DNA of 25,998 bases, from positions 1 to 25,998 of the IMG/VR virus record IMGVR_UViG_3300017963_002325, one strand, 5' to 3'. Positions 10,982-25,998 of the stretch are shown piece by piece (position 1 is the first letter of the stretch; every line of letters begins with the position of its first letter). Made by a program: the position numbers and the translations under genes. The notes beneath the pieces are model-generated. The model was not told where the DNA came from. It did not search any database and saw only the letters and a program-made list of their open reading frames with translations. Source of the DNA: a virus.

Positions 10982-11188
10982 CTAGGCTTCCACAGGGTTG
11001 ATGTATTCCATGCAGATGTTCAGAAGGTCATCGTACGAGTGCGCCTCGCTGAACGCACGTCGTTTGAGCTCCTGAGCCTCTGCACGGTATCCGTTGCGTC
11101 GCAGAGTATCCACACAGATACCTACGACAGAGAACGCGTTTCCATTCGCTCCGATGATCGGAGCATCACACAGCGGTTTCTCTGGCAT
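10982..11188 (-). CDS. Small protein of unknown function, 68 residues
   Basis: The protein has a short N-terminal strand-turn (PIIGANGNAFSVVGI) followed by two helices (DTLRRNGYRAEAQELKRRAF and SYDDLLNICMEYI). This 'IG..GN.F...G...LR..G....A.E' layout recurs in phage hypothetical proteins, but no function is known. It overlaps the HAD-like gene's stop by 23 nt, and its ATG at 11188 lies within that gene, so coupling is likely. No metal-binding or membrane motif is seen. Confidence 0.7.
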   Translation of the reverse strand: MPEKPLCDAPIIGANGNAFSVVGICVDTLRRNGYRAEAQELKRRAFSEAHSYDDLLNICMEYINPVEA

Positions 11189-11510
11189 CCTCAGCCTCCA
11201 GTAGCTGAAGCATCGCTGCTCCGAATGCTTCAGCAGTCATGGTGTTGATCTTCGGGAACCTGCCATAGGTCCTCAGAAGATATTCTTCATCGTCCACGAC
11301 GATACCCTCTCGGATAGGCATACCGTCTGCTTTCGAGTACAGCGCATGCGCGAGAGATCGGATCCACTCCGGAGTCCTCTCGATACATCCAGACCACACG
11401 TGCAGGACAGCACCACGACTCTTCAAGAGAGCGAGAGCTCTCTCCACCTGGTCTCTCGAAAGAACAGGATTGTTCTCGAGAGTCCCTCCTATGTCCAGCA
11501 AGAATACCAT
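11166..11510 (-). CDS. HAD-like hydrolase, small
   Basis: The start at 11510 (MVFLLDIGGTLENN) is set by AGGAGG placed 5 nt before the ATG; a longer in-frame extension to 11609 has no good site. HAD motif I is DIGGT at residues 6-10. Motif II could be HVWSG near 38-42. A VVDDEE segment at about 74-79 could be motif IV. HAD phosphatases normally have DxDGT; here the second Asp is Gly, so phosphatase activity by the usual mechanism is doubtful. At 114 residues there is no cap domain. Members of this fold in phages include nucleotide and end-repair phosphatases. Confidence 0.65.
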   Translation of the reverse strand: MVFLLDIGGTLENNPVLSRDQVERALALLKSRGAVLHVWSGCIERTPEWIRSLAHALYSKADGMPIREGIVVDDEEYLLRTYGRFPKINTMTAEAFGAAMLQLLEAEDARETAV

Positions 11511-11538
11511 TCTCCCCTCCTGTCTAGATGTTCCAACA

Positions 11539-11575
11539 CTGCTCAAGAGACACTCAACGAATGCCGCTTGAGCAG
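11539..11575 (-). repeat. 9-bp inverted repeat in leader of HAD-like gene
   Basis: CTGCTCAAG (11539-11547) and CTTGAGCAG (11567-11575) are a perfect inverted repeat with a 19-nt spacer, between the repeated TTAAGGG element and the ribosome binding site of the HAD-like gene. It would form a stem in the leftward mRNA. No T-run follows. The role is unknown; a leader stem or an operator would both fit. Confidence 0.5.
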
Positions 11576-11597
11576 GGCTGGATCGCACCCTGCCAGC

Positions 11598-11631
11598 GTT
11601 AAGGGCCAAGAGATCCTTAACGGGTCGGTTT
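11598..11631 (-). promoter_or_regulatory. Copy of repeated TTAAGGG / GGGTCGGTTT element
   Basis: GTTAAGG (11598-11604) and CCTTAAC (11615-11621) form an inverted repeat, immediately followed by GGGTCGGTTT (11622-11631, plus-strand reading). The same arrangement is at 25728-25761 and, with CTTAAGG arms, at 16513-16548. The element overlaps the stop codon of the gene at 11617 (TAA is part of the arm) and precedes the HAD-like gene. It is a candidate promoter or operator for the leftward genes downstream. Confidence 0.5.
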
Positions 11632-11970
11632 AAGATCTCGTTTCAAGAGTCCTCGAATCTCGTCGTAGGACTCTGGTGTCAGGCAGATCTCGTCTTCGCC
11701 ATCTTTCTCTTTTATGTAGAGACGGATCTCGACCTCTCCTGCGTGAATCGTCTCGCCAGACCAGTCACACGTCGAACGATAGTTGTCCTGCGAGGTCTCC
11801 ACGTCTTCGATCGTGCATGACTCCAGTCGTTCCAGGAGTTCTTCCTGACGTTGCTCTTCCTGCTCTTCGTAGCAGCCACAGCCTCCCTCACTGAGATGGT
11901 AGCGACCACCACAGTTCTCACAGGTCCTGTAGTACATTCCCCAGTCGTCAGGGACATTGAACTCAGCCAT
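11617..11970 (-). CDS. Small protein with N-terminal zinc-ribbon motif
   Basis: With the start at 11970 (MAEFNVPDDWG; GGAGG upstream) the protein has 117 residues. Four cysteines in CENCG (17-21) and CGC (31-33) form a compact zinc-ribbon-like site. A Glu/Gln-rich helix follows (EEQEEQRQEELLERLE), then a beta-rich segment (IHAGEVEIRLYIKEKDG) and a short C-terminal helix. Unknown function. The stop TAA lies in the repeated regulatory element. The start overlaps the stop of the gene upstream by 8 nt. Confidence 0.75.
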   Translation of the reverse strand: MAEFNVPDDWGMYYRTCENCGGRYHLSEGGCGCYEEQEEQRQEELLERLESCTIEDVETSQDNYRSTCDWSGETIHAGEVEIRLYIKEKDGEDEICLTPESYDEIRGLLKRDLKPTR

Positions 11971-13368: not shown

Positions 13369-13719
13369 CTAGTTTATGGTCGCGTCCGGATCCGCATACT
13401 GCCGGAGAGCGAACGCCAGTCTCTCGAGCTCCTCGTACTTCTGCTTCAGGAGAGCCTGAGCAGACAGCGCCTCTGCTCTCCTACCCCAGCACGGAGAGTC
13501 GAACGTGTGGTCGACCTCAGTGAGGTGCTGGTTGATCTCCTCGAGGAACTCTGCGATCTGCTCAAGATCGTGCTCGAGGACCTGTTTGAGAGCCTCCATG
13601 TTCATAGCGAGGTTCGCGATGAACACATCCTCTGGGAGAGTACGGAACTTCTGAGGAACGGGATGGATCTCTTCCATCAGAGCGATGAGATCCTCTCGCG
13701 TGATCTTGGTCTCTGTCAT
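13369..13719 (-). CDS. Helical protein of unknown function, 116 residues
   Basis: Composition is almost all helix, with heptad-like stretches (LEHDLEQIAEFLEEINQHL and LLKQKYEELERLAFALRQYA). No motif is recognised. The start overlaps the previous stop as ATGA and has GGAGG 7 nt upstream. It probably oligomerises through a short coiled coil. Confidence 0.7.
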   Translation of the reverse strand: MTETKITREDLIALMEEIHPVPQKFRTLPEDVFIANLAMNMEALKQVLEHDLEQIAEFLEEINQHLTEVDHTFDSPCWGRRAEALSAQALLKQKYEELERLAFALRQYADPDATIN

Positions 13720-13922
13720 TTGTCCACCTCCGAGAGAGCTCGCTCGATCGTCTCCTCGAGATCAGTCCCGCGCCACTCCTGCGAGCACATCCTCGACATG
13801 ACGTGCACCTGTCCTCGTTCCAGATCTCTGGACCACCCGAGGATCGGTATGCCCAGATCCACACGGACCACACCCATCGTCCTGGCTGAGTCCATGTACT
13901 CGATTCTGTAGTTCTTTGCCAC
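13716..13922 (-). CDS. Small protein of unknown function, 68 residues
   Basis: Starts at GTG 13922 with AAGGAGGAG upstream, right after hairpin cassette A. It has a beta-rich N-terminal half (YRIEYMDSARTMGVVRVDLG) and a helix (LEETIERALSEVDK). Nothing identifies its function. It is the first gene after the 87-nt hairpin-bearing gap. Confidence 0.65.
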   Translation of the reverse strand: MAKNYRIEYMDSARTMGVVRVDLGIPILGWSRDLERGQVHVMSRMCSQEWRGTDLEETIERALSEVDK

Positions 13923-13945
13923 TGCTCCTCCTTTCGTGGTTCTAG

Positions 13946-13990
13946 CACTGCGCTGGACCCACTCCGATGAAGAATGAGTCCAGCGCAGTG
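13946..13990 (-). promoter_or_regulatory. Conserved RNA hairpin cassette A
   Basis: On the minus strand CACTGCGCTGGACTCATTC pairs with GAGTGGGTCCAGCGCAGTG (19 bp including two wobbles) around loop TTCATCG. It lies in the 87-nt gap between the DUF2786 gene and the next start. CTAGAACC and then AGGAGG follow. Copies B and C share the base of the stem (CTGCG/CGCAG) and the CTAGAACC tail but differ in the upper stem with compensating changes. No U-run follows, so it is not an intrinsic terminator. Confidence 0.75.
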
Positions 13991-14009
13991 CGAGAGCCCT
14001 GCTGAGACG

Positions 14010-14741
14010 CTACGATAGCAGCTTCCGACCCCTGCCCCGGACCTGTGCCGCACGGGTCTGAGAGGTCTTCAGTGCGTCGTGGAGATGGACCTGACGACCA
14101 GCCTCGCGGCCATGACTGCGAGCGGTGTAGTCGCTGTGGCTGCGACGACGAGTGCCCTTGCGGAGACCGAGAGATGCCAGGTAATTCTGCACCGCATCCC
14201 ACTCCTTGTCGATACGGACGAGAGCAGTACAACTGGTCGCTCTCGCCTCCTCGTGGATCTCCCTCTTGCGAGCGAGAACACGCTCTCCCACAGTCTCCGT
14301 AGCACCCTCCAGGAAGGACATCCTGATATTGGCCTTGACCTTGGTGGTGCCATAGAACTCGCGACAGTAGATGCGCATCAGGTGTCGGAGCATCCGGACC
14401 AGATACGTGTGAAAGTAGTCCACGATCTGGACATTCTCCGGAGTGCCGACCACGATGAGCTGCTTGTTGCGCTTGAAGCACGCACAGCTGTTGGCCTTGG
14501 CGATGTGGAGTGCGAGCTGCGTGTGCCACAGAGGCTTGCCACCGAACAGTGGATGCTCGATCACATCGATGGTAGCATCCGGATCCTCCTCACGGAGCTG
14601 AGCCATCTCGATCTGGTACTTGGCCATCAACTCCTGCGCACGAGCAGCAGCGAGAGCAGCCTCGTTCTCGTTGTCCGACTCCGAGAGAGCCAGACACTTC
14701 TTGATCTTGTCGACGATCTTGTCGAACTCTGCAGTTGTCAT
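14010..14741 (-). CDS. DUF2786-domain protein
   Basis: The N-terminal 45 residues (KIKKCLALSESDNENEAALAAARAQELMAKYQI) match DUF2786, a short helical domain found in phage and bacterial proteins of unknown function. The middle region (about 65-200) is mixed alpha/beta, with paired cysteines CACFK near 87 and a conserved-looking WHTQLALHIAKAN segment. The end is basic and Gly/Arg-rich with a GREAGRQVHLHDAL segment typical of this family. The protein is 243 residues. AGGAGA precedes the ATG. It is the largest gene in this accessory block. Confidence 0.8.
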   Translation of the reverse strand: MTTAEFDKIVDKIKKCLALSESDNENEAALAAARAQELMAKYQIEMAQLREEDPDATIDVIEHPLFGGKPLWHTQLALHIAKANSCACFKRNKQLIVVGTPENVQIVDYFHTYLVRMLRHLMRIYCREFYGTTKVKANIRMSFLEGATETVGERVLARKREIHEEARATSCTALVRIDKEWDAVQNYLASLGLRKGTRRRSHSDYTARSHGREAGRQVHLHDALKTSQTRAAQVRGRGRKLLS

Positions 14742-14743
14742 CG

Positions 14744-14938
14744 CTAGTTCTCCTGTGAGTCAAGCAGTTCGTTGAGAGCACAGAGATACTCGTCGAACGA
14801 CATGTTCCAACGACGAAGTACATCTCGTTCGAAGAACGATAGCTCGTAGCTATATCTTCTCTCTACGAACTCTTTCTGCAGACGTTCTGTCCTGGACACC
14901 TCTTGGAGGAGGAGGCTTCTCATGATCTGCACATGCAT
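14744..14938 (-). CDS. Small helical protein of unknown function
   Basis: The 64-residue protein is charged and helical (LQEVSRTERLQKEFVERRYSY; FDEYLCALNELLD). It starts at ATG 14938, with GAGGAG 6 nt upstream; that site overlaps the end of the preceding gene. No motif is recognised. Confidence 0.65.
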   Translation of the reverse strand: MHVQIMRSLLLQEVSRTERLQKEFVERRYSYELSFFERDVLRRWNMSFDEYLCALNELLDSQEN

Positions 14939-14941
14939 ATC

Positions 14942-15205
14942 CTACTCCTCGTCACGCTGGGAGTTGAAGCCGTAGTAGGCCTTCAGCTGAGGATCGTCGT
15001 CCTCTCCCCAGCGACAGTTGAGACCCTGCTCGAGCCAGAGTCCCTCGCGATCACGAGCCCACTTGATAGCTCCTTCGACAGTGGTGATACCCTCCCGCTG
15101 GAGCTCCTCTGCGATCTCGTGGTCGTCGAAGCACTCGTCGATGGATGTGCAAGATCCTGCACCGACCAACTTGTCCTCGCGGATCGCCTTGACCAGAGTA
15201 TCCAT
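14942..15205 (-). CDS. Small acidic protein of unknown function, 87 residues
   Basis: The start at 15205 (MDTLVKAIRED) has GGAGG upstream; a longer upstream extension lies inside the zinc-finger gene and is not used. The protein has an acidic helix (DECFDDHEIAEELQREG) and a Trp-rich segment (IKWARDREGLWLEQG). No family is recognised. Confidence 0.68.
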   Translation of the reverse strand: MDTLVKAIREDKLVGAGSCTSIDECFDDHEIAEELQREGITTVEGAIKWARDREGLWLEQGLNCRWGEDDDPQLKAYYGFNSQRDEE

Positions 15206-15206
15206 C

Positions 15207-15410
15207 TCAACCCTCCACCTTCTCGAGAGTCGAGAGATCGTACTTCTGGCCACGACCAGTACCGAGACCGACACCGATCTCCTCGTGGCACTCCACGCAG
15301 AGCAGTCCCCATGGACCCATCTGCGTCTTGCCGTCGATAAAGTACTTCTTGAATGGTCTGTGGCAGACGTCACATGACGTCGGCTCAGATCCTGCCCACT
15401 TGGTAGCCAT
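15207..15410 (-). CDS. Small zinc-finger protein, 67 residues
   Basis: The start at 15410 (MATKWAGSEP) has AGGAGG 5 nt upstream, in the same leader sequence (CAGGAGGATACA) as the gene at 15914. Two knuckles, CDVCH (13-17) and CVECH (38-42), form a four-Cys site separated by 21 residues. This is a treble-clef or zinc-ribbon-like arrangement. The C-terminal tail is Gly-rich and basic. Function is unknown. Confidence 0.75.
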   Translation of the reverse strand: MATKWAGSEPTSCDVCHRPFKKYFIDGKTQMGPWGLLCVECHEEIGVGLGTGRGQKYDLSTLEKVEG

Positions 15411-15439
15411 TGTATCCTCCTGGTTGGATGGTTCTAGCA

Positions 15440-15494
15440 CTGCGATGAATCCTCCTCCGAAGAGAAGGACTCATCGCAGGGCATGAAGCCCTGC
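15440..15494 (-). promoter_or_regulatory. Conserved RNA hairpin cassette B
   Basis: Minus-strand CTGCGATGAGTCCTTCTC pairs with GAGGAGGATTCATCGCAG (18 bp, two wobbles) around TTCG, giving a C(UUCG)G tetraloop, one of the most stable known. It is preceded in the RNA by a short hairpin GCAGGGC/GCCCTGC with loop TTCAT (15476-15494), which shares four bases with the large stem. CTAGAACC, then the ribosome binding site of the zinc-finger gene at 15410, follow. Confidence 0.8.
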
Positions 15495-15500
15495 AGGAGA

Positions 15501-15914
15501 CTAGGCGACGAGGGAGAGAGCAGCCTGCAGACCAGCGCAGAACTCGACCGGGTTGTACTGGCTGGCACGGGACTGCGTCACACGGTTCTGACGACGAGCC
15601 AGGTAGTCGAGGATGTCGTCGGACAGACCCGTGAGCGTCACGGAGTGGTAGTGCGCAGCCACACCCTGGCAGAGACCGGAGAACATGGAGTGGCTGGTGG
15701 CCTGGGACCTGCACTCGTTGCGCAGCCTCTTGATGGTGCGCTTGCACTCCTTGACCAGCGAGTTGTCGGAGTGCACGAGCCAGATGGTGGAGCCGTCGTG
15801 GAAGCAGCCGACACCGTAGTACTTGGCGACAGCGACAGCCATCTCGTAGGAGCCCTTGGACTGCTTGCTGAAGAGACGGTAGCGACGCAGGTAGTTGGTG
15901 GTGTTCTCGGACAT
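15501..15914 (-). CDS. Protein of unknown function, 137 residues, strong codon bias
   Basis: The start at 15914 (MSENTTNYLRR) has AGGAGG 6 nt upstream; the in-frame extension reaches back through hairpin C and is not used. The first half is alpha/beta (YEMAVAVAKYYGVGCFHDG, TIWLVHSDN). The second half is helical with a LTGLSDDILDYLARRQNRV segment. Codons are strongly biased to C/G-ending forms, as in the genes at 7198 and 16019, which suggests high expression. Not recognised. The flanking hairpin cassettes B and C make this gene a discrete mRNA unit. Confidence 0.75.
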   Translation of the reverse strand: MSENTTNYLRRYRLFSKQSKGSYEMAVAVAKYYGVGCFHDGSTIWLVHSDNSLVKECKRTIKRLRNECRSQATSHSMFSGLCQGVAAHYHSVTLTGLSDDILDYLARRQNRVTQSRASQYNPVEFCAGLQAALSLVA

Positions 15915-15933
15915 TGTATCCTCCTGTTGGTTG

Positions 15934-15947
15934 TGCCCACTCGGGCA
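15934..15947 (-). promoter_or_regulatory. Small leader hairpin before ribosome binding site
   Basis: TGCCC/GGGCA with loop GAGT (minus strand) sits 10-25 nt upstream of AGGAGG for the gene at 15914, followed by ACAACC. The gene at 16306 has the same arrangement with GCCCC/GGGGC (16325-16336), then ACAACC and AGGAGG. The stems differ in sequence but keep pairing, so the leader structure looks conserved. Confidence 0.5.
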
Positions 15948-15958
15948 GGTTTCTAGCA

Positions 15959-16014
15959 CTGCGCAGGACCCACTCGTGGGAATGAATCCTGCGCAGGGCA
16001 TGAAGCCCTGCTAG
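15959..16014 (-). promoter_or_regulatory. Conserved RNA hairpin cassette C
   Basis: Minus-strand CTGCGCAGGATTCATTC pairs with GAGTGGGTCCTGCGCAG (17 bp, with wobbles) around CCAC (15959-15996). A short hairpin GCAGGGC/GCCCTGC with loop TTCAT (15993-16011) precedes it, and an outer CTAGCA/TGCTAG pairing (15953-15958 with 16009-16014) would close a three-way junction. It lies directly after the stop of the gene at 16019. Confidence 0.78.
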
Positions 16015-16018
16015 GAAA

Positions 16019-16306
16019 CTACTGCGACTTCCACTCCGACTTCGCGGTACGGATCTCCTCGCGCAGCGACTTGATCTCCTGAGCCATCGCCTTGCGCTGC
16101 GACTGCAGCTCCTCGATGCGCTTGCGCTTGTCCGCCACCATGTTCTCGAACTCGGACTTGGCCTTCTGCTTCTCGACCATCTTGGTGACCTTGTTGGCCA
16201 GCTTGTCCTCGAAGGATGCACGTAGCTTAGCGATGGCCTCCTCCGCCTGCTGCTTCTCCTCCTTGGACAGACCCTTGAGCACCTGGTTGACGTTCGACTG
16301 GGACAT
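16019..16306 (-). CDS. Small coiled-coil protein, strong codon bias
   Basis: The start at 16306 (MSQSNVNQVLKG) has AGGAGG 5 nt upstream, giving 95 residues; the upstream extension is leader. Nearly all of it is a charged coiled coil (KQQAEEAIAKLRASFEDKL, KRKRIEELQSQRKAMAQEI). C/G-ending codons dominate, as in the genes at 15501 and 7198. It is the first gene after the long non-coding region, so it is probably the promoter-proximal, highly expressed member. Function is unknown; a structural or DNA/RNA-associated role is possible. Confidence 0.75.
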   Translation of the reverse strand: MSQSNVNQVLKGLSKEEKQQAEEAIAKLRASFEDKLANKVTKMVEKQKAKSEFENMVADKRKRIEELQSQRKAMAQEIKSLREEIRTAKSEWKSQ

Positions 16307-16512
16307 TGCTTCCTCCTGGGTTGTGCCCCGTGGGGCGGTTTTTGTTCGCGGACGCTCCTGCGCCCACACGAAAACGAAGCAAAACCCAAGCCAAATCCGC
16401 GCCGAGAACCGCTGAATCGGTTCTTCAGGCCCGACGTTCAGAGGCTCTCAGCGACCGTCTGAACGGTTTTCGCCAGGAATGAGCCAAGAGAGGCCTCCGG
16501 CCGTTTCAACCG

Positions 16513-16548
16513 CCCTTAAGGGCGTTCAGAGCCTTAAGGGGTCGGTTT
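16513..16548 (-). promoter_or_regulatory. Copy of repeated TTAAGGG / GGGTCGGTTT element
   Basis: CCCTTAAGGG (itself a palindrome, 16513-16522), spacer, then CCTTAAG and GGGTCGGTTT ending at 16548. Same order as the copies at 11598 and 25728. It lies in the non-coding region about 210 nt upstream of the first accessory gene. Confidence 0.5.
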
Positions 16549-16580
16549 ATTTCGACTGTGATTCCGGTTGTTTAGCCCTT

Positions 16581-16659
16581 GGCGCGAAAGGTTTTACGCG
16601 GCTGTGGACCGGAAACCTATGATTTCGGTCGGTTAATGGCGCGAAAAGGTTTTCGCGCC
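16581..16659. repeat. GCGCGAAAA palindrome and related copy
   Basis: GGCGCGAAAA (16638-16647) and TTTTCGCGCC (16650-16659) make a perfect 10-bp palindrome around GG. A related copy, GGCGCGAAA then GGTTTTACGCG, lies at about 16581-16600 with imperfect symmetry. Such twofold symmetry suits a dimeric DNA-binding protein. Confidence 0.65.
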
Positions 16660-16725
16660 TCCGCGCAAGGATTTACGCAACTGAGGGGATTTCGGCGATT
16701 TCCCTGTGTCAACGGTGGGATAGAG

Positions 16726-16767
16726 GGCCGACAAATTTGGGTCGCAGGGCGACGAATTTTGTCGGCC
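16726..16767. repeat. Long nearly perfect hairpin with TTTGTCGGCC arms
   Basis: GGCCGACAAATTT (16726-16738) pairs with AATTTTGTCGGCC (16755-16767) at 12 of 13 positions. Inside it, GTCGC (16741-16745) pairs with GCGAC (16749-16753) around AGG. The whole 42-nt stretch is one stem-loop. The arm sequence TTTGTCGG recurs at about 16822, suggesting a shared binding site. Confidence 0.65.
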
Positions 16768-17073
16768 TTAAGGACTCAGAATCCTTAGGGAATTCGGGAA
16801 TCGCTCGGTCAGGAAGGCGAAGTTTGTCGGAGGGCGTAAAGCACCGGAATCGTAGGGAATTTCGGGGGCTGGATTCCCCTATGATTTCGCGGGTTTCCCT
16901 TCAGGCTTCGTGTACGGCCGCTGAAGGCGTCGGCCGGAGGCCCGAGGCACCGGCCCGAGGGGTGCCTCCCCGCGCCTTGACGGGGCTCTCAGGGCTCGCT
17001 GGACCCAAGAATCCACGCGCCTGCGCGCCTGTGCGCGTCCGCGGGCATCCGCGTACGTACATGAGAGTGAAGG

Positions 17074-17400
17074 TCACCGCGACCTACGAGTCCTCCTACG
17101 CTTGTCCGGAGGACCACCACGACCACCGTTCGTACGAGGTGGCCTCTCCTTCTGCTCTGCGAAGTCGACACGGATCTGTCGTCCCTTCAACTCCGTGTCG
17201 TGCATCTCGTCGCGTGCGACCCTGGCATCGTCCGCACTCTTGTAGCGCACGAACCCGAATCCTCGTGAGCGTTTGGTCTCCCGATCGTACACGATCTTCA
17301 CCTCCTCGACAGGACCGAACACTCCGAATGCCTCTGCGAACTCCTGCTCGGTCAGAGACCAAGGCAATCCACCAACGAACAACTTCTGCTGATCTGTCAT
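17074..17400 (-). CDS. RRM-domain RNA-binding protein
   Basis: Residues 6-82 form one complete RNA recognition motif: RNP2 LFVGGL (about 7-12), RNP1 RGFGFVRY (about 46-53), and the rest of the beta-alpha-beta pattern (EQEFAEAFGVFGPVEEV, ADDARVARDEM, GRQIRVDFAE). The Arg/Gly/Pro-rich tail (NGGRGGPPDKRRRTRRSR) is like those of small glycine-rich RNA-binding proteins of cyanobacteria and other bacteria. RRM proteins bind single-stranded RNA through aromatic residues in RNP1/RNP2. They are uncommon in phages. The ATG overlaps the stop of the SbcDC gene by 4 nt, so the two are co-translated. It is a candidate binder of the mRNA hairpins found downstream. Confidence 0.9.
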   Translation of the reverse strand: MTDQQKLFVGGLPWSLTEQEFAEAFGVFGPVEEVKIVYDRETKRSRGFGFVRYKSADDARVARDEMHDTELKGRQIRVDFAEQKERPPRTNGGRGGPPDKRRRTRRSR

Positions 17401-20312
17401 AGCAGTTCTCCAAGTCGGGTGACACCATCCTCTTTCACCAGAGTCAACTTGTTCGGCAGGATGGAGTCTAGGAACGGCCGATGTGCCATCAAGAAGATGG
17501 TCATCTGATCGGCCTTGGATTCCAGGATATCGACGAACGACGCGAGTGTCGTCTCGTCGATAGGATCGATGACCTCGTCGCAGATGAGGAGATTGACATG
17601 GCTGCCTCCGGTGGCCACAGCCAGATCATTGAGAGCGCATTGGATGGACAAGTCCACCATCATCTTCTCTCCGCGCGAGAGTCCTTTGTAGGGCCGACTC
17701 CGTGGGAGCACCACTTCGATCTTCTCCTCCAAGTCCCCAGACTTCGTCTCACGATAGTCCAGATGACAAGGTTGTCCCAGCTTCTGCGAATACTCGACGA
17801 GACGAGAGTTCAAGAAGGGCAGGGACACCTGGAAGAGGAGGTCGGCTCGAATGCCTGTCGTGTGGAATGCTTCCGAGAGCCATTCTAGGACCTCGTGGGA
17901 ATAGGACTGCTTCTCCAAGAGGTCTTCGAGTCGAGCGATCTCTGCCTGAGTCGACTTGATCGTGGACAGACGTTCTTCTCGGGCAGATCGTAGGTCCTGT
18001 GTTTCTCTCCCTAGTTGTTCGAGTTCTTCTTTCAGTTCCAAGTCCTTCATCTGTAGGTCAGAGATGTTCCGACGCAGACGATTGACTTCCTCCGATTGTT
18101 CAGCTGCCTCCTCTCTGTACCTTTCTTGGTACTCTTGAAGCTGGGTTTGACGAGTACGCAGCTTCTCGTACTTCTCTCTCGAAGGAGCGAGACGAGATTC
18201 AAGGTCTTCGAGTTCTGCGACACGTTCGTCGAGTGACCGACGGACAGGAGCTCCTTCAGCAATCTCTTGTCCGCATTCCGGACAGTGTCCTCGTTCAATG
18301 AGAGCTCGGATCTCAGCAACTTGATTGGACAAGATCCCTATCGATGTCTCAATCGATCGAGTCTGTTCCGCAGCTTGCAACAAGGGTTGCTGAAGCGCCT
18401 TCAACTTCAGCTCGACAGAGTTGACCTTCGGGAGAGTCTGCGAGAGCTCGAGTTCTGCTTCTTCGAAGCGAACTTGCAGGCTTCGTAGCTCTTCTGCATT
18501 CTCCTTCAGATCTCGCTGTTTGGCGTTGATGATCGGACCTTTGGTGCCTCTTACCACCTTAATCTGCGCATCTATTTCACTTATCCGAGCTTCGGAGGAC
18601 GCTACAGTTTCACGCAAGGAAGACAAAGAACCTTGAGTCCTCATCCATTCGGATGATATCTTGTCCGTATCCTTCTTCACCAGAGCACCAGCGCTCGCGA
18701 AGACCCCTACGTCGGTGATCTCCTCGATCAAACGGATCCTGTCTGGGTACGTCAACGACGTGAACTTGTGAGACAGGCCCGAAGTCAAGAACACCGAGTG
18801 CTGAAGGACTGTGGTGCTCCTCCCGAGCAGGTCTGCGATCTTCTTGTCGGTGTCAGACTTCAGTCGAGCCGAGATGTCGACCATACCATCTTCGGAGTCC
18901 TTCCAGAGGAGTACCGTGGTACCGTCGTCAGGATCTTTCCGCGAACGGAAGATCCAGTACTTCTCGTCACCTATGCGAAGCCACAGTTTCACGTTGCAAT
19001 AATCGTGGTCCCAGTGTATGACTTCGTCCCCTGTGTACTTCCGGAGAGACTTGCCTGTCAGACACCAGTAGATCGCTTCGTGGATCGTGGACTTGCCGAC
19101 ACCATTCGCATCGTAGGGATCGTCTCGGTTGATACCTTCGACGTACCACAGACCTCCTTGATCGAGTTGGAACTTGACTCGGCCGAGTGACTGGAAGAAG
19201 TTGGCTTCCATCTTCTCGAACGTGATAGGGAGCGTATGGTGTCTGATGTCGCAAGACGCTTGTTTCAGATACTCGATCCCTCGAGCGACTAGATCCTTAC
19301 GCTTGATACCTTCGGGCAGACGACTGTTGATGTAGGTTTCGAAGACTTTCAGAGCAGAGAAGTGCTCTGACGAGAACTTCGGAGCTTCACCGGATAGGTT
19401 GCCTGTCTCGGGTAGGACCTCAGTTCTGGAACCTTGCGAGAAGTATCCGATCTGCTCGACGAGCTCTTTGAACTCGGACTTGTAACGAATCCGGACGTAG
19501 CAGTTCTCGAAGCCAGAGACTCCTGATTCAAGCTTCTCCTGCCACGTGGCCGCAGTCGCTTCATCTTTGATGAAGACGTCTCGGAACGGTACGTCGTGTG
19601 GGTTCGGATAGAACTGTTCGGTACCGACAACGTTATCGACAGAGACGAGCCAAGCACCACGAGGATCCGAATCCACATCGGAGAACGTCCGTGAGAGTAG
19701 AGCACCTAAGTTCTGGACGTTCTTTCCGACGGCTCCTGGGTTGTGGGTATGTCCGTTAAAGACAGGCACGCGGAACATGTCCGGCTTCGCACCGAACTCA
19801 GCACGCTTGGTCTTGTAGAGGAAGCTACCTTCGATGTCCAAGTGCGTCAGAATGCACTTCGTCTTTGGAGGTACCTCTACCTCCTTCGGATCTGATGTCC
19901 ACGGAATGCAGAAGATGTCCGAGTCAGGAAGAGTCAAAGGATGATCTACGACCCAAACGTTCTGCATGTGTCGAAGGAACTCCAAGTTGTGGATGTTGTG
20001 TTCCGTCGAATAGGCGTCATGGTTGCCTACCAGGCAGAACACAGGAGCACCCACGTCATCCGCAGCGACAGCGAGACGATCGAAGAGCTCTGTCGCTACC
20101 TTCAACGAAGTGGTATCGACGAAGCCAGTCGTCTCCGTCACATCTCCCAGACAAACCACATAGTCAGGCGTGGTCTCTTGGATCAGATCTTCCAACCAAT
20201 GGAAGGACTTCACGACCCTGTGGAGGTACGTCGAGAGACCATCCGATGTCGGTTGGGAGAAGGCTGCCTTGGGAGTGATGTGAGGGTCGGTGAAGAGGAG
20301 GAGTCGTTTCAT
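17397..20312 (-). CDS. SbcD-SbcC (Mre11-Rad50) fusion nuclease/ATPase
   Basis: One 971-residue chain carries both subunits of the DNA-end-processing complex. The N-terminal phosphodiesterase has D9/H11 (FTDPH), LGDV (55-58), GNHD (96-99), a His in LTHLD (about 157) and GHTH (187-190). From about 365 the ABC ATPase begins. Its Walker A ends DANGVGKST (401-409) and carries an insertion after the first Gly. A long coiled coil (about 550-810) holds a zinc hook HCPEC (676-680). It ends with the signature LSRGEK (878-883) and Walker B LLICDEVID (908-916). T4 encodes these as gp47 and gp46, on separate genes. There is no stop or frameshift between the parts. The ATG overlaps the exonuclease stop by 4 nt. 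Confidence 0.95.
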   Translation of the reverse strand: MKRLLLFTDPHITPKAAFSQPTSDGLSTYLHRVVKSFHWLEDLIQETTPDYVVCLGDVTETTGFVDTTSLKVATELFDRLAVAADDVGAPVFCLVGNHDAYSTEHNIHNLEFLRHMQNVWVVDHPLTLPDSDIFCIPWTSDPKEVEVPPKTKCILTHLDIEGSFLYKTKRAEFGAKPDMFRVPVFNGHTHNPGAVGKNVQNLGALLSRTFSDVDSDPRGAWLVSVDNVVGTEQFYPNPHDVPFRDVFIKDEATAATWQEKLESGVSGFENCYVRIRYKSEFKELVEQIGYFSQGSRTEVLPETGNLSGEAPKFSSEHFSALKVFETYINSRLPEGIKRKDLVARGIEYLKQASCDIRHHTLPITFEKMEANFFQSLGRVKFQLDQGGLWYVEGINRDDPYDANGVGKSTIHEAIYWCLTGKSLRKYTGDEVIHWDHDYCNVKLWLRIGDEKYWIFRSRKDPDDGTTVLLWKDSEDGMVDISARLKSDTDKKIADLLGRSTTVLQHSVFLTSGLSHKFTSLTYPDRIRLIEEITDVGVFASAGALVKKDTDKISSEWMRTQGSLSSLRETVASSEARISEIDAQIKVVRGTKGPIINAKQRDLKENAEELRSLQVRFEEAELELSQTLPKVNSVELKLKALQQPLLQAAEQTRSIETSIGILSNQVAEIRALIERGHCPECGQEIAEGAPVRRSLDERVAELEDLESRLAPSREKYEKLRTRQTQLQEYQERYREEAAEQSEEVNRLRRNISDLQMKDLELKEELEQLGRETQDLRSAREERLSTIKSTQAEIARLEDLLEKQSYSHEVLEWLSEAFHTTGIRADLLFQVSLPFLNSRLVEYSQKLGQPCHLDYRETKSGDLEEKIEVVLPRSRPYKGLSRGEKMMVDLSIQCALNDLAVATGGSHVNLLICDEVIDPIDETTLASFVDILESKADQMTIFLMAHRPFLDSILPNKLTLVKEDGVTRLGELL

Positions 20313-21307
20313 CGGAGTCTCTGGAAGGGAGTGATCCAGTGGTGGATCTGGTCCGTGATACTGAACAGGTCGAGCTCGGTGAGGTAGTACTTCACCTTCA
20401 CGATGTCTGCTTCGACGGGAGCATCGAGCAGATTCTGGACTTGAGATGCAGTCCCATCAGGGTAGGGCTCGAGATGGAACGCCATGAGCTCGTAGTTACG
20501 GAGGACGACGTCCAGCTGGTCCGCGATCTTCCTCACTGTCTTCGTCTTGTGCTCGAAGCACCAGACGATGAATTCTTCGAAGGGGTATGCTGTCGGTCCG
20601 TGGTAAGCATCGAAGATCTTTCGTAGCCAGCCTTTGCCCACTCCTTCCACACCACGGATCTTGTCGCTCCCATCTCCGACAATCGCACGCCAGAGTAGGT
20701 GGTGGCTCAGGTCATGTCCTACAAGGAACCTGAAGTTGGACTCGGTAATGTGTTCATCATGGATGGGTCTGAGAACCGACAGAGAGCCGTACTGATCACC
20801 GACGTCAGGTTCTCTGGATCGCCACTCGTTGACAGCCTGAACATAGTCCAAGTCGTCTGATACGAGGAGCACAGATCCGGGTCTCTCGTGGTACTTCGAT
20901 GCGATTCTGTAGCAGAGGTCGTCTGCTTCCCAACCGACGATACGTACCACACGAGTCCCGAGCAGAGGTAGGACGTGCTGCAAGTAGGTCCTCTGTCGGG
21001 AGAAGTCGCGACGGTACTGCGACTTCTCAGGATCAGGATCCGGCTCTTCGTACAAGGGATCCTCCGGAGTACGGTACTTGGAGCCCTTGTACTCTGGGTA
21101 CAGCGCTCTGCGTCTCTGGGAGATGCCTCCGTCAAAGACGACGGTGCAGACGTTGACCTGCTGTTCGATCAAGATCTTGCGGAGAGACTTCAAGAACCCC
21201 ATGACACCACCCGTAGGCTTGTCATGTCTGTTACGCAACTGTGCTAGATCTCCTGCACGCATACAACGGTGCAGGAGATAGTTGCCATCGACGACTGCGA
21301 TCGGCAT
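20309..21307 (-). CDS. FEN-type 5'-3' exonuclease (T4 RNase H-like)
   Basis: This removes RNA primers and 5' flaps during lagging-strand synthesis. Metal-binding acids are in the expected places: D7 (VVDGNY), D59 (VVFDGG), E127/D129/D130 (GWEADDL), D151/D152/D154 (VSDDLDY) and D212/D215 in GDGSDKIRGVEGVG (211-224), the helix-three-turn-helix DNA-binding segment. An arch region rich in Arg and Tyr (RRRALYPEYKGSKYR) follows the second acid. At 332 residues it matches T4 RNase H (305). AAGGA precedes the ATG. Position beside SbcDC and UvsX supports a replication/recombination role. Confidence 0.93.
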   Translation of the reverse strand: MPIAVVDGNYLLHRCMRAGDLAQLRNRHDKPTGGVMGFLKSLRKILIEQQVNVCTVVFDGGISQRRRALYPEYKGSKYRTPEDPLYEEPDPDPEKSQYRRDFSRQRTYLQHVLPLLGTRVVRIVGWEADDLCYRIASKYHERPGSVLLVSDDLDYVQAVNEWRSREPDVGDQYGSLSVLRPIHDEHITESNFRFLVGHDLSHHLLWRAIVGDGSDKIRGVEGVGKGWLRKIFDAYHGPTAYPFEEFIVWCFEHKTKTVRKIADQLDVVLRNYELMAFHLEPYPDGTASQVQNLLDAPVEADIVKVKYYLTELDLFSITDQIHHWITPFQRLR

Positions 21308-25242: not shown

Positions 25243-25713
25243 CTAGTGGTCTGCCTTGAGCTCTTGTCGGTAGTTGACTGACAGCTCGTTGAGTTTCTTG
25301 TTCCGTCCGAAGACGATCATTGATATCTCTTGCAACGTCTCGTAGAGAGCTTGCGCTGCTTGGTTCCTCCGTCGCTTGACAGCGACGTCAGGGTGAGTCA
25401 ACTGGTAGGCTTTGAGTTCGTTCGCAGTAGCCTTGTAGCCACCATTGTTGATCCTGGGAGAGTCGAGGAAGACTCCCGCTTGCTCTTCTTCCAGATCGAA
25501 CTTGGATTCAGCGGCGACATTCCTGTACTTAGACAGGAGGTAGACCATGTCTGCTTCGATCTCGATCTGCTTCTGGATCTTCTGATTCACATCCTCGAAG
25601 CCATGGAGATCGAGCTCCAGACGGTATACCACCTCCTTGATGACCGGACGGTCTTCGGACTCAAGGAACTCAGAAGTTAGGACTTGTTTGACGAGACGTT
25701 GTAGGGCGTTCAT
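25243..25713 (-). CDS. UvsY-like recombination mediator (candidate)
   Basis: The 156-residue protein is helical with a charged central stretch (KIQKQIEIEADMVYLLSKYRN, about 44-64) and a C-terminal helix pair ending KLNELSVNYRQELKADH. T4 UvsY (137 residues) has the same layout: an N-terminal helical region, a central segment around a 'SADKDV' turn, and a closing basic-helical end (KHIQDMRAFEAG). Here TANELKAYQLTHPDVAV is the comparable turn. UvsY loads UvsX onto gp32-coated DNA, and both partners lie directly downstream. The match is by layout only. Confidence 0.55.
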   Translation of the reverse strand: MNALQRLVKQVLTSEFLESEDRPVIKEVVYRLELDLHGFEDVNQKIQKQIEIEADMVYLLSKYRNVAAESKFDLEEEQAGVFLDSPRINNGGYKATANELKAYQLTHPDVAVKRRRNQAAQALYETLQEISMIVFGRNKKLNELSVNYRQELKADH

Positions 25714-25727
25714 TGCTTCCAGAAGGG

Positions 25728-25761
25728 GTTAAGGGCCTTGCTACCCTTAACGGGTCGGTTT
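25728..25761 (-). promoter_or_regulatory. Copy of repeated TTAAGGG / GGGTCGGTTT element
   Basis: GTTAAGGG (25728-25735) and CCCTTAAC (25744-25751), perfect 8-bp arms with an 8-nt spacer, then GGGTCGGTTT (25752-25761) and TCTTTT. It fills most of the gap between two leftward genes and is the best-preserved copy. In the rightward sense it ends in a T-rich run, but no rightward genes are present. Confidence 0.55.
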
Positions 25762-25764
25762 CTT

Positions 25765-25998
25765 TTAGGCTGCTTTCAACAGAGGAGCGAACTCCCAGAC
25801 GGATGTGATAGCTTCCTCCTTGATCGCCTCTCGGGTGACCTCAGAGCGACCGCTGTGTACCAGTTCACTACCGTCTTCCAGGACCAGAACCTTGTTCTCC
25901 TCGAGAAGGATCGGAGGTTCGTCCCACATCATGAAGGCTTCGCACATCTTCTCGTAGTACTCTGGTTTCGCCTTCTCGAACTTGATTTGATGGTCTCC
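25765..25998 (-). CDS. Protein of unknown function (5' end outside window)
   Basis: The open frame continues past the right edge, so the 5' part is missing; 77 C-terminal residues are visible. A Met at 25947 is internal, since the frame stays open upstream (EYYEKMCEAF). The visible part has an acidic helix, then beta strands (ENKVLVLEDGSELVHSG) and a helix ending EFAPLLKAA. No family is recognised. It ends 4 nt before the repeated TTAAGGG element. Confidence 0.65.
   Translation of the reverse strand, partial: GDHQIKFEKAKPEYYEKMCEAFMMWDEPPILLEENKVLVLEDGSELVHSGRSEVTREAIKEEAITSVWEFAPLLKAA

Follow-up and report, generated by a model that had tools for sequence, protein, structure and literature searches.

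Introduction

The polycistronic mRNA of phage T7 is laid out with hairpins of about two helical turns between its genes, and these hairpins do not carry a U-run. RNase III is widely distributed, so that a phage need not supply an enzyme of its own. At the T7 site R1.1 a single bond is cut (PMC4858673). A minimum of 22 nt has been used for RNase III targets, and the verified sites are without a striking sequence pattern (PMC5371410), so that recognition by RNase III cannot be scored reliably. In the Cluster K mycobacteriophages, short-spacer inverted repeats known as SAS and ESAS are found just upstream of the translation start in a subset of genes (PMC3203893, PMC11373665). The arms of the ESAS follow a sequence consensus and contain SigA-like promoter hexamers.

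Here, we analyse an entire IMG/VR record, a linear fragment of 25,998 bases (the window), in which the minus strand carries all of the recognisable genes. The same strand carries four long hairpins, E1-E4 (Table 1), which are copies of one cis-acting RNA element related by common descent.

Table 1. Coordinates of the hairpin elements, their flanking genes and the overlapping contigs.
Feature	Position in the window	Strand	Description
E1	13938-14002	-	Core stem 13946-13990, 20/20 pairs; companion weakened by one G-A mismatch; tail CUAGAACC
E2	15430-15494	-	Core stem 15438-15481, 19/20 pairs, one C-U mismatch; C(UUCG)G loop; tail CUAGAACC
E2 companion arms	15488-15494 / 15476-15482	-	
E3	15947-16011	-	Core stem 15957-15998, 18/19 pairs, one C-U mismatch; tail CUAGAAACC
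E3 companion arms	16005-16011 / 15993-15999	-	
E4	11532-11593	-	Core stem 11537-11577; tail UUGGAAC; more diverged copy
E4 companion arms	11588-11593 / 11572-11577	-	GCAGGG / CCCUGC
Gene upstream of E3	16019-16306	-	95 aa; stop UAG; weak coiled-coil-type matches only
Gene between E3 and E2	15501-15914	-	137 aa; stop UAG
Gene downstream of E2	15207-15410	-	67 aa; no family match
Gene upstream of E1	14010-14741	-	DUF2786/DUF7168 protein; phrog_421; stop UAG
Gene downstream of E1	13716-13922	-	GTG start; no family match
Gene upstream of E4	11617-11970	-	No family match
Gene downstream of E4	11166-11510	-	No family match
Contig L161 (IMGVR_UViG_3300017971_001616)	25247-25998 (overlap)		99.2% identity over the 752-base overlap
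Contig L156	25715-25998 (overlap)		Same phage species

Structure of the four hairpins

The three hairpins that a preliminary description had placed at 13946, 15440 and 15959 are real. Their minimum free energies are -49.9 (E1), -48.8 (E2) and -54.2 kcal/mol (E3), which correspond to fold z-scores of -7.40, -7.30 and -6.65, and none of 200 dinucleotide shuffles reaches these energies. A stem scan of the minus strand returns four hairpins with a score of at least 40, against none in 20 dinucleotide-shuffled windows. The initial set of three was thus incomplete, the fourth copy being E4. Stem lengths of 19, 18 and 17 bp had been proposed for the first three; the stems themselves stand, and their minus-strand cores have instead the pair counts listed in Table 1. 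Beyond the C-U mismatch of the E2 and E3 cores a lower helix is present, and with this helix and its mismatch included the length comes to about 24 pairs.

All four copies have in common a foot in which CCCUGC (CACUGC in E1) faces GCAGUG, a core of 19-20 pairs, a loop of 3-5 nt and a tail of the pattern [CU]U[AG]GAA (YURGAAC). The base CTGCG/CGCAG and the C(UUCG)G loop of E2, both pointed out previously, are present in the sequence. The tail, described as shared by the three, is identical in E1 and E2 and differs in E3. The foot and the tail are conserved in four of four copies, while the middle and upper parts of the stem vary with their pairing retained. The upper stems had been said to differ and nevertheless to pair; they do pair, with the difference residing mainly in E2 (and E4), and those of E1 and E3 are largely alike. 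The sequence GCAGTGYTRGAA has exactly four exact occurrences in the window, all of which lie inside elements, compared with 0.41 expected when one mismatch is allowed.

A small companion hairpin is part of the element and is formed by pairing between GCAGGG and the CCCUGC of the main-stem foot. It had been reported as identical in two copies, which is correct; the GCAGGG arm is in fact found in all four, and E2, E3 and E4 have it with an unbroken partner. In E1 the second arm reads CACUGC, giving one G-A mismatch, and in E4 the companion loop differs and is longer. GCAGGGY followed by CCCTGC within 4-10 nt occurs solely at E2, E3 and E4 (0.01 expected).

Covariation and strand preference

A covariance model built from E1-E3 alone and searched against the window with filters off recovers E4 with 35.0 bits (E = 1.5e-7), and the next match outside the elements has an E-value of 0.13. 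A weak match (E-values of 0.003 to 0.13) falls within coding sequence, at 17771-17831, and was taken as chance.

In the four-sequence alignment, which was obtained with MAFFT, 89.9% of the cells pair. Both sides have changed in 11 of the 25 pairs, compared with 3.6 +/- 1.5 in shuffles, none of 500 of which is as high. When the partner is slid by 1-3 columns the number of pairs changed on both sides drops to 0-2, although this control is biased in favour of the structure, which was taken from the individual folds. The covariation is based on four paralogues from one genome, a small number of related copies. As the pairing is retained while the letters have changed, it is the folded RNA that matters, and the paired structure has been kept through compensatory changes.

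In the core stems, G-U pairs number ten and A-C pairs are absent; the opposite strand would read ten A-C mismatches. Each copy also scores far higher with the covariance model on the minus strand (77-72 bits) than on the plus strand (44-27 bits). The transcribed RNA, and not a DNA palindrome, is therefore the most likely target of selection. These numbers support the earlier proposal of a conserved mRNA element whose changes are compensatory, and the polarity of the wobble pairs points to the transcribed strand. The roles suggested together with it, in processing, stability or protein binding, are conjectural. The likeness between E1, E2 and E3 may be partly due to recent duplication.

Placement among the genes

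All four elements are strictly intercistronic, and the position between stop codon and ribosome binding site that had been assigned to the first three is confirmed in the sequence. From 11.1 to 16.3 kb, neighbouring genes overlap or are nearly contiguous save for four spacers, each of which holds one element. These spacers measure 104, 88, 87 and 106 nt, with 90 nt for the E2 spacer when the start codon is corrected to 15410. The companion arm starts 6-7 nt past the UAG stop codon in E1-E3, and downstream of each element an AGGAGG is followed by a start codon, the distance from the end of the tail to the ribosome binding site being approximately 5-22 nt. Over the whole window, elements occupy four of the ten spacers of at least 25 nt; the remaining spacers are empty, including the 767-nt noncoding region 16307-17073.

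This noncoding region contains several short repeats (GCGTAAAACCTTTCGCGCC-like, TTAAGG and GGGAATCC) and is perhaps an origin or the main control region. Searches with the product of 16019-16306 gave no family above the curated cut-offs, and that of 15501-15914 found nothing in Pfam, NCBIfam or PHROGs. Also on the minus strand, 17397-20312 is an SbcC-like gene and 20309-21307 has matches to DNA polymerase I (its 5'-3' exonuclease part, in NCBIfam) and to the phrog_107 exonuclease.

Two further repeated features were observed on the minus strand. The motif AAACCGACCC[G/C]TTAAGG occurs three times (0.03 expected), at 11615-11631, 16532-16548 and 25745-25761, each time with a complementary CCTTAA after it and either near a stop codon or in the noncoding region; it is a possible promoter or regulator site at the head of transcription units. 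E4 sits immediately downstream of one of these copies. A second type of small hairpin, with a shared tail of its own, stands ahead of two genes at 15914-15950 and 16306-16340, and its two sequences, GCCCGAGUGGGC-ACAACC and GCCCCACGGGGC-ACAACC, both lie immediately 5' of AGGAGG.

The phage and its relatives

The phage is an orphan, a DNA search against 50,697 phage records having returned no match, with the qualification, stated by the tools themselves, that the searched databases may omit near-identical records. The best identity of its terminase is 36% among everything found in protein and alignment searches. Relatives were sought by DNA, by single proteins and by alignments of the terminase and UvsX, and none of those recovered has the hairpin element; no homologue is present in about 145 distant loci and 40 whole records. 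Degenerate DNA patterns of the hairpin match viral contigs at chance level only, and by eye none of the long hairpins listed for the related loci is similar to E1-E4.

A scan with the promoter-like motif led to L156 and L161, contigs that come from other samples and belong to the same phage species (Table 1). Of these, L161 adds 13.7 kb upstream with genes for a portal protein, a helicase, a DnaB-like helicase, a primase and a DNA polymerase. These 13.7 kb contain no further copy of the element, and the family is confined to about 4.5 kb of the known genome of this phage.

No family of Rfam 15 reaches its gathering threshold anywhere in the window. With relaxed limits, the closest bacterial family is PhotoRC-I (RF01716), which is matched by E2 only, with 21.4 bits against a gathering score of 45, and through GCAGGGCUUC..GCCCU and CUUCGG. 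Membership of PhotoRC-I was rejected on account of this low score, the restriction to one copy and the second hairpin of the model, which does not match the long stem. The 13-bp SAS GGGATAGGAGCCC, which in Cluster K adjoins the start codon, has ten matches in the window with at most three mismatches, compared with 7.3 expected, and none of them is at an element.

Possible functions

The best explanation that we can offer, and one that we put forward tentatively, is that E1-E4 are intercistronic processing or protective hairpins that act like the T7 RNase III sites. The long helix would be a cutting or end-protecting site in the polycistronic transcript. Host RNase III, a double-strand RNase, or another nuclease would open the message at the foot and tail, both of them conserved, leaving an upstream message with a stable hairpin at its end and a downstream message that starts just ahead of the ribosome binding site. 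The small genes that flank each element could thus be expressed and decay independently. Processing or protection accounts for the strength of the stem, the free sequence of its upper part, the lack of a U-run and the location of the element after a stop codon and ahead of a ribosome site, and the helix meets or exceeds the 22-nt minimum RNase III target of PMC5371410. It does not explain the conserved foot and tail well; a binding protein would explain them.

The specific foot and tail exceed the needs of a general double-strand nuclease, and a dedicated binding protein may be involved. It is conceivable, if somewhat unlikely, that an RNA-binding protein of the phage or the host recognises the foot (CCCUGC/GCAGUG) together with the tail (YURGAAC) and thereby controls the following gene, either repressing or activating its translation. 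Such a protein would be consistent with the constancy of foot and tail across the four copies, in which the upper stem varies but stays paired, and with a tail that ends so close to the ribosome binding site. However, no candidate regulator can be named, the adjoining small genes being without a family match, and the conservation among E1-E3 may in part reflect the duplication considered above.

The companion and the foot of the long stem use the same bases, so that the two folds compete and cannot both form fully. A two-state RNA switch is therefore imaginable, in which GCCCUGC is shared by two exclusive partners, the companion (GCAGGGC:GCCCUGC) and the long-stem foot (GCCCUGC:GCAGUGC), but we regard it as unlikely. 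The companion would form early, and the order of folding during transcription, or a ligand or protein, would decide between a full long helix (cuttable or blocking) and a shortened helix with the tail exposed. The companion is indeed transcribed earlier, and equilibrium favours the long stem: forcing the companion costs 3.1 kcal/mol in E3, 4.7 in E2, 7.8 in E4 and 15.3 in E1. In E2, E3 and E4 the main stem keeps a C-U mismatch at the C that the companion needs, and E1 has A-U at this position. The mismatch thus tracks the intact companion, a single evolutionary contrast that is suggestive only.

That the hairpins act as transcription attenuators or as U-run-less ('I-shaped') terminators is distinctly unlikely. 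The stems are found within 50 nt after the stop codon, as in mycobacterial U-less terminators (PMC12288462). However, the lack of a U-run noted in the preliminary description is confirmed, with no intrinsic-terminator T-run directly after the stem in any of E1-E4 by sequence or by scan, and the scan detects no terminator-like or promoter-like match at the elements, including SigA-like -35/-10 hexamers. Termination would also cut off the directly following genes, which have strong ribosome sites and no promoter-like site in between.

Translational coupling, in which the sequence after the stop codon would mask the next Shine-Dalgarno (SD) sequence until a ribosome arriving at the stop frees it, is very improbable. 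UCUCCUG of E2 is able to pair with CAGGAGG across the hairpin, and the SD of E1 and E2 becomes more exposed when the stop region is blocked. However, SD exposure is not consistently below that of 26 control genes (mean 0.34), and shuffled flanks mask equally in E2 (106/200) and E4 (77/200) and only weakly less in E1 (17/200) and E3 (12/200), so that masking, when tested, was not above chance. Finally, a DNA palindrome serving as an operator, a mobile repeat or a site of recombination or replication is extremely improbable: multicopy inverted repeats are known in phages, for example the 17-bp palindrome of Cluster O mycobacteriophages (PMC4351075), but here the arms co-vary and the half-site sequence is not retained, the wobble pairs favour one strand, and four of four copies lie between a stop codon and a ribosome site, with none within genes. 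Termination, Shine-Dalgarno masking and SAS/ESAS membership all fit less well than processing or protection.

Comparison with known systems

E1-E4 add to phage mRNA biology an RNA element that is absent from Rfam, and the four natural variants already show which parts are kept and which vary. If processing is true, a further phage lineage would be seen to split its operons through RNA cutting; were the switch true, a phage would have the same small bistable RNA ahead of several genes.

The elements resemble U-less terminators in having a strong stem shortly after a stop codon, but differ from them in being paralogous, with a conserved foot and tail and a ribosome site directly after. As with the SAS and ESAS of Cluster K, there are several short-spacer inverted repeats just ahead of translation starts; unlike the consensus arms of the ESAS with their promoter hexamers, the arms of E1-E4 covary and have no promoter-like site. 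T7 R1.1 is cleaved, whereas cleavage of E1-E4 is only proposed, and their foot overlaps a competing small hairpin; like the T7 RNase III sites, of which R1.1 is an example, they place a long double-stranded stem without a U-run between the genes of a phage operon.
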